In this document: piece by piece, positions 18,690 to 42,877 of the stretch | Position numbering within the stretch: position 1 is the first letter of the stretch | Layout: every line of letters begins with the position of its first letter | From: Cellulomonas fimi | GTDB taxonomy: Bacteria; Actinomycetota; Actinomycetes; Actinomycetales; Cellulomonadaceae | Direction of reading: 5' to 3' | DNA length: 64,000 bases | Assembly (NCBI RefSeq): GCF_028583725.1 | Contig: NZ_CP110680.1 | Location: 1,798,001 to 1,862,000, forward strand | Program-made: the position numbers and the translations under genes | Notes under the pieces: model-generated | Seen by the model: the letters and a program-made list of their open reading frames with translations, nothing else | Database searches by the model: none | Told to the model about the DNA's origin: nothing

Positions 18690-18718
18690 TTGACTAACTG
18701 TCCAGAAACGGTCATAGT
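18690..18718 (+). promoter_or_regulatory. Promoter of the bldC-like gene
   Basis: TTGACT (18690-18695) and CATAGT (18713-18718) with a 17-bp spacer, close to the vegetative sigma consensus. The predicted start of transcription, about 18725, falls at the 5' edge of the riboswitch. Confidence 0.7.
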
Positions 18719-18722
18719 TCTT

Positions 18723-18809
18723 CTTGTCAGCGACAACGGCAAACCCGCCGCAAGGTGGGGACGCAAAGCCACGGGACCCACGAGGTCAGCCGAGCTACCG
18801 AACGACAGG
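18723..18809 (+). promoter_or_regulatory. Class I cyclic-di-GMP (GEMM) riboswitch
   Basis: The leader of the bldC-like gene matches the GEMM-I aptamer: GGCAAACC, a hairpin closed by a GNRA loop (CCCGCC-GCAA-GGTGGG), GGGACGCAAAGCC, a second helix starting ACGGG, and CAGCCGAGCTACCG at the 3' side. A P1 stem can form between CTTGTC (18723-18728) and GACAGG (18804-18809). The 3' strand of P1 contains the first bases of the AGGAG ribosome binding site (18807-18811), so ligand binding would hide it and reduce translation. The aptamer call rests on sequence and pairing; the OFF direction is inference. Confidence 0.88.
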
Positions 18810-18817
18810 AGATGATC

Positions 18818-19033
18818 ATGGCTGTGACCACCGACGCCCCCCTCACGCAGGGTGCCCTTCTCACGCCGGGCGAGGTCGCGGTCCTGTTCCGCGTGGACCC
18901 CAAGACGGTGACGCGCTGGGCGCAGGCCGGCAAGCTCTCGGCGGTCCGCACGCTGGGCGGCCACCGCCGCTTCCACGAGGCCGAGGTGCGTCAGCTCCTC
19001 CAGGGCGTCCCCACGCAGCGCGCGAGCGAGTGA
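18818..19033 (+). CDS. bldC: BldC-type MerR-like developmental regulator
   Basis: 71-residue DNA-binding protein with a MerR-like winged HTH: LLTPGEVAVLFRVDPKTVTRWAQAGK followed by RTLGGHRRFHEAEVRQLL. Length and sequence fit BldC of Streptomyces, which binds DNA as asymmetric head-to-tail oligomers and controls development. The ATG at 18818 is chosen over 18812 because AGGAG sits 6 nt before it. Controlled by the promoter and c-di-GMP riboswitch just upstream. The organism probably does not sporulate, so the regulon must differ from that of Streptomyces. Confidence 0.93.
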   Translation: MAVTTDAPLTQGALLTPGEVAVLFRVDPKTVTRWAQAGKLSAVRTLGGHRRFHEAEVRQLLQGVPTQRASE

Positions 19034-42477: not shown

Positions 42478-42877
42478 GCGGATGAGTCAGTCAGGCGGCC
42501 GCGTCAGGCCCTCGGGCCTGCCGAGGAACGTCCGGGCTCCGCAGGGCAGGGTGGTGGGTAACGCCCACCCGGGGTGACCCGCGGGACAGTGCCACAGAGA
42601 ACAGACCGCCGGCACCGCGTCGTGGAGATACGGCGCGGGCGCCGGTCAGGGTGAAACGGTGGTGTAAGAGACCACCAGCGCACCGGGTGACCGGTGCGGC
42701 TCGGTAAACCCCACCCGGAGCAAGGTCAGACAGGGAGCGTTCGAGGGCGGCCCGCCCGAGCTCCCGGGTAGACCGCTGGAGGCGTGCGGCAACGTACGTC
42801 GTAGAGGGATGGTCGCCACCCGTGCCGGGGCAACCGGGCACGGGGACAGAACCCGGCGTATCGACTGACTCATCCGC
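42478..42877 (+). ncRNA. rnpB: RNase P RNA, bacterial type A
   Basis: About 400 nt. P1 is formed by GCGGATGAGTCAGTC at the 5' end and its exact complement at the 3' end. Conserved core sequences are present: GAGGAACGTCCGGGC (P3/P4 region), ACAGAGAACAGACCGCC, GGTGAAACGGTGGTGTAAGAG, and ACAGAACCCGGCGTA near the 3' end. Catalytic RNA that makes mature tRNA 5' ends. Confidence 0.97.

Follow-up and report, generated by a model that had tools for sequence, protein, structure and literature searches.

The Streptomyces regulator BldD represses with c-di-GMP. Excerpts of two papers name bldC among the BldD targets of Streptomyces (PMC4151990, PMC6428758), and at the locus described here c-di-GMP would likewise act on a bldC gene. 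The sensors differ, however: in Streptomyces it is the DNA-binding protein BldD, whereas in Cellulomonas it would be the leader RNA of a BldC paralogue, and a model of the BldD-like C-terminal domain that matches 86 of the 118 genomes searched in the class finds no match in our source genome (one domain model, one genome). A second comparison is offered by the Vc2 riboswitch ahead of tfoY in Vibrio cholerae, which belongs to the same aptamer family, has the same contact bases and is also a leader element of a transcription regulator gene. According to an excerpt of PMC7371385, c-di-GMP-bound Vc2 restricts the translation of TfoY, whereas the direction of our element leans towards ON. Also unlike Vc2, the leader described here is nearly all aptamer, with a Shine-Dalgarno sequence 0 to 2 bases from helix P1, and its target is a BldC paralogue.

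The locus lies in a 64,000-nucleotide stretch of the Cellulomonas fimi chromosome (hereafter the window). We propose, with a probability of roughly 0.82, that the 5' leader of the gene that we call bldC2 consists almost entirely of a class I c-di-GMP riboswitch, and that this riboswitch would control translation of the gene by binding c-di-GMP. The initial annotation knew of no described example of such a pairing, and our literature search, whose scope lay outside the original paper on the Rfam variant families, likewise returned no report combining riboswitch, BldC and c-di-GMP. Among the matches listed for Cellulomonas with riboswitch or c-di-GMP, none concerned c-di-GMP riboswitches by title, and the excerpts of two further papers merely list the variant c-di-GMP-I-GGC as a family (PMC12452182, PMC9943018). 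The features of the locus and the second BldC gene of the genome are as follows:

18690-18695 and 18713-18718, plus strand: promoter, TTGACT and CATAGT with a 17-base spacer (from sequence and conserved spacing)
about G18726, plus strand: predicted transcription start, where GUCAGCG and the conserved P1 begin (from spacing)
18726-18806, plus strand: P1, with outer GUC 18726-18728 facing GAC 18804-18806 and inner pairs C18731-G18800 and G18732-C18799
18729-18803, plus strand: c-di-GMP-I aptamer (from RF03167 and RF01051 matches, covariation and contact bases)
G18738, A18765 and C18798, plus strand: contact bases, equivalent to Vc2 G20, A47 and C92 (our own mapping from Vc2)
18795-18799, plus strand: possible anti-Shine-Dalgarno CUaCC containing C92 and C93, whose predicted partner in the P1-open state is GGAG 18808-18811
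18807-18811, plus strand: Shine-Dalgarno AGGAG, immediately downstream of the 3' strand of P1
18818-19033, plus strand: bldC2, a small single-domain winged helix-turn-helix (wHTH) protein of 71 residues in the BldC family (NF033787, HTH_BldC, 100.6 bits against a cut-off of 77)
C1:3698229-3698372: second BldC (HTH_BldC, 106.2 bits)

The aptamer and the layout of the leader

The GEMM-I-like aptamer, the promoter and the 71-residue BldC homologue claimed by the initial annotation all held up. A cmscan of the whole window matched RF03167 (c-di-GMP-I-GGC) at 18729-18803 with 66.9 bits (gathering cut-off 59, E-value 1.2e-13), making it the best-scoring Rfam family for the element, and RF01051 followed at 18728-18802 with a covariance score of 63.2 bits over a gathering cut-off of 35. 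The source genome (4.49 Mb, one contig) has three RF03167 matches in all. Elsewhere in the window lies a bacterial RNase P RNA of class A (42483-42876, 287 bits).

An alignment of 43 of the 75 distinct bldC-preceding aptamers, comprising 989 pair cells, has standard pairs in 96.4% of these cells and both-sided changes at 9 pairs, a number that none of 500 shuffles reached, while sliding the helix partners against each other lowers pairing to 24% to 43%. One pair in P3 is non-standard in 23 of the 43 rows. The outer P1 is paired in 96.1% of its cells, and 6 of the 43 rows have changes on both of its strands, probably from a single event in one clade. Three bldC leaders from genus g32, out of 80 that could be read, have GUC in place of GAC, which breaks the outer P1. 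Strict aptamer patterns miss degenerate copies, and two loci in our numbering, L257 and L263, were recovered as aptamers only by a looser pattern.

P1 is also where the initial annotation stood only in part: it had drawn GACAGG (18804-18809) as the 3' strand overlapping AGGAG, and GAC does belong to the conserved helix, but AGG does not. On paper GACAGG can pair with CUUGUC (18723-18728), yet only GUC/GAC is conserved and covarying. We thus rejected the CUU/AGG extension as a conserved feature, since CUU lies upstream of the predicted transcription start and is not kept in relatives.

The 5' end of the aptamer reads GTCAGCG in 69 of 85 distinct aptamer-bldC leaders, and 57 of these 69 have a -10-like box 6 to 8 bases upstream of it (exactly CATAGT in 47) together with a -35-like box at a spacing of 17 bases in 51 and 18 in 6, counts made with loosely defined patterns on related sequences and no shuffled control. 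This conserved spacing would place the transcript start at about G18726, in line with the initial annotation, which had it fall at the aptamer, so that bldC2 transcription would begin at the first base of P1. At the other end, the Shine-Dalgarno sequence lies 0 to 2 bases from the GAC of P1 in 72 of 85 bldC leaders, and the start codon follows the aptamer after a gap of only 14 bases. We rejected terminator-based control on account of this short gap, which makes translation initiation the most likely level of control.

bldC2 and the second BldC of the genome

The nearest solved chains to the bldC2 product are 6amk and 6ama, both annotated "Putative DNA-binding protein", which we take to be S. 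coelicolor BldC. The bldC2 gene is not the genome's closest counterpart of the Streptomyces gene, and we rejected it as the orthologue. Of 56 positions compared with the S. coelicolor protein (6ama segment), the second BldC is identical at 47 and the window protein at 42, and the second BldC groups with S. coelicolor BldC in our tree (support 91/96, 62 columns). The tree comprises 86 sequences (73 linked to an aptamer and 13 without); many of its forks are unresolved, and its bootstrap had not converged. Twelve of the 13 aptamer-free BldC proteins, including the S. coelicolor segment, share one branch (91/96) without any aptamer-linked member, while the remaining one, L266, sits on a long branch. 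The window gene is thus a BldC paralogue, hence our name bldC2. A pattern search of the 260 bases upstream of the second BldC found no aptamer, and the three RF03167 matches of the genome all lie elsewhere.

Fourteen aptamer-linked BldC proteins, most of them from Actinotalea, C. carbonis and C. bogoriensis, sit nearer to the canonical branch than to the Cellulomonas type (branch 100/97), and for this reason the aptamer-linked BldC genes may have more than one origin.

Direction of the predicted switch

The initial annotation had translation repressed when ligand is bound. Our analysis does not support this part: the Shine-Dalgarno sequence is not part of the conserved P1, folding of the window RNA points the opposite way, and relatives are mixed. 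When the window RNA (18726-18829) is folded with P1 unconstrained, the GG of the Shine-Dalgarno sequence pairs with C93/C92 at 0.9 and its AG with U18796/C18795 at about 0.67 to 0.7, and the C92/C93 pairing stays at 0.91 to 0.94 across three RNA lengths. With P1 enforced, the five Shine-Dalgarno bases are 0.86 to 0.99 unpaired. The ligand would claim C92 and close P1 with C93, the very partners of the Shine-Dalgarno sequence, which argues for an ON switch: with P1 open, GGAG would pair with CUaCC; c-di-GMP binding would engage C92 and shut P1, a helix with a 3' strand that in most relatives ends 0 to 2 bases ahead of the Shine-Dalgarno sequence, and GGAG would be free for translation. Given these folding models, we give an ON switch in which c-di-GMP frees the Shine-Dalgarno sequence an even chance.

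The relatives speak less uniformly. We folded 65 of the 85 bldC leaders (leaving out 16 without GTCAGCG and 4 without CCGAACGAC), and the C92/C93 pairing to the Shine-Dalgarno sequence exceeds 0.5 in 27, 24 and 24 of these 65 at three lengths. With 12 coding bases included, closing P1 leaves the Shine-Dalgarno sequence more open in 32 leaders, less open in 10 and similar in 23; with 35 coding bases the figures are 19, 16 and 30. The P1-closed folds are on average less stable than the ligand-free ensemble by 4.1 and 6.7 kcal/mol. An alternative GAC...GUC hairpin in the stretch that joins P1 to the start codon is found in 8 of 52 distinct bldC leaders against 3.4 expected from shuffling, and in 10 of 33 non-bldC leaders against 2.0 expected, counts that include related sequences and that we do not take as proof.

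The best-surviving rival is an OFF switch, in which the ligand-bound P1 would abut the Shine-Dalgarno sequence and block the ribosome. The short distance between the two in 72 of 85 leaders fits such a block, Vc2 provides a precedent, and BldD represses bldC in Streptomyces according to an excerpt of PMC4255298. Its difficulty lies in the folds, since the Shine-Dalgarno sequence is outside the conserved P1 and unpaired in the P1-closed window RNA, and since leaders that open on P1 closure outnumber those that become less open by 32 to 10 in the short context and 19 to 16 in the longer one. We regard the OFF switch as a tentative second reading, and it is unlikely that c-di-GMP has little effect in either direction.

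Distribution of the aptamer-bldC unit

Within the family, 116 of 221 genomes have an RF03167 match; they represent 7 of 25 genera and include 79 of the 81 genus genomes listed. A search for the aptamer before bldC in relatives, which the initial annotation had named as a check on the pairing, found the unit in all 36 genus genomes whose aptamer regions were examined. With one genome per species, an exact pattern (aptamer core, gap and BldC codons) that misses diverged pairs retrieved 68 stretches: 50 from Cellulomonas, 10 from Actinotalea (two of them from one genome), 1 from Cellulosimicrobium cellulans DE0111 and 7 from metagenome bins with names no finer than order. A related form of the proposed bldC2 riboswitch arrangement is present in Actinotalea. 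Across the class, RF01051 matches 42 of 345 genomes; of the 19 new loci among these, 8 were readable by regular expression, and no BldC-like downstream frame was found among those shown. Because so few of the class-wide loci are readable, the limit of the bldC link to the family is drawn mainly from the exact-pattern search.

This distribution bears on the possibility that the element is simply a structured 5' end that stabilizes the mRNA, or a relic, without any c-di-GMP-dependent control of bldC2. Loose synteny around the unit is compatible with that idea (among 34 distinct named loci, DUF1206 was found at 7 and TetR at 12), but several genera retain both the contact bases and the covarying helices, and a genus genome without an aptamer match (G081, 100% complete, 530 contigs) also lacks a second BldC, its single copy being of the canonical kind. 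We consider a stabilizer or relic highly unlikely and retain a riboswitch as the probable function of this leader.

The ligand

Vc2 contacts c-di-GMP through G20, A47 and C92 according to an excerpt of PMC4744006, and the equivalents of all three are present in the window aptamer. Among 162 distinct regex-readable aptamers, 153 have the full G/A/C set, and the A47 place is A in all 162, although the pattern permitted A or G there. The G20 place is A in 4 of the 162 (examples are L079 of genome G004 and L032 of genome G035), and 2 of these 4 precede bldC; C92 is changed or unreadable in 5 further aptamers. We take an A at the G20 place to be the mark of 3',3'-cGAMP-sensing relatives.

The name of RF03167 calls for a comment. 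We understand its "GGC" to refer by definition to a G at the A47 position, a position that we took from the model consensus. This consensus has G directly after CGC, whereas the window has A there, as c-di-GMP binders do, and so do all 162 aptamers; we therefore rejected membership in the GGC variant by its naming base.

Taken with the retained A47 and G/A/C contacts, the EAL proteins encoded behind related aptamers and the c-di-GMP enzymes of the genome (9 GGDEF and 7 EAL matches over cut-off, some of the EAL matches partial) make c-di-GMP the likely ligand of the window aptamer, as judged from sequence. A ligand other than c-di-GMP, as the variant label might suggest, is very improbable: RF03167 does outscore RF01051 for the window and for the genome copy at C1:271025 (67.9 over 63.6 bits), and A stands at the G20 place in those 4 aptamers, but the naming base is absent throughout, the contact set is complete in nearly all aptamers surveyed, the remaining copy of the genome is matched better by RF01051 than by RF03167 (68.0 over 61.5 bits), and related aptamers precede EAL proteins.

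Other genes behind related aptamers

Besides bldC, related aptamers precede genes for EAL proteins, secreted-looking proteins and proteins of about 50 residues. EAL-domain proteins are encoded directly behind the aptamer at L139 (G062) and L149 (G065), where feedback on c-di-GMP is possible. In the source genome, the aptamer at G000:C1:271025-271099 (L001/L085) is followed by a secreted-looking protein that matches Glyco_hydro_26, and the one at G000:C1:4250430-4250503 on the minus strand (L003) precedes a microprotein of 49 residues. Outside the family but within the order, a further aptamer (L004, G057) precedes a 124-residue protein that is response-regulator-like, as named from its sequence.

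We collected 31 such microproteins of 38 to 63 residues with an ARxxAWAxLA-like core. They occur in at least 21 of 36 genus genomes by a regex count that missed the source genome, which has one. Pfam gave nothing for the two that were tested, and one microprotein, used as a protein query, retrieved 2 relatives, of which one is named as a hypothetical protein of Cellulomonas biazotea. A [VILF]PxQ motif lies within the last 22 residues of all 31, a regex-chosen set, while two microproteins outside this set (L053 and L057) end without PxQ; a [VILF]Px[QP] tail is present in 82 of 86 BldC sequences.

These observations invite a broader and quite unlikely scenario, in which Cellulomonadaceae would have lost BldD and compact ON riboswitches, with the ligand-contact segment doubling as anti-Shine-Dalgarno, would govern extra BldC genes and microproteins of about 50 residues as one c-di-GMP regulon, the microproteins sharing BldC's VPxQ-like tail and maybe acting on BldC or a partner.

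Implications

The initial annotation had proposed that this organism links c-di-GMP to a Bld-type regulator by RNA instead of BldD. The aptamer leader, its conserved linkage to bldC, the c-di-GMP enzymes and the lack of a BldD-like domain match under our model speak for this, but the qualification is that the copy closest to Streptomyces BldC has no aptamer, so that the link would concern the paralogue. Two lineages may therefore couple c-di-GMP to bldC genes through different sensors. If this is true, the aptamers would delineate a candidate regulon of BldC paralogues, EAL proteins, secreted-looking proteins and microproteins, and one messenger would reach a bld-type regulator via a sensor made of RNA in one lineage of actinobacteria and via the protein BldD in another, providing a testable case of the rewiring of a second-messenger circuit.
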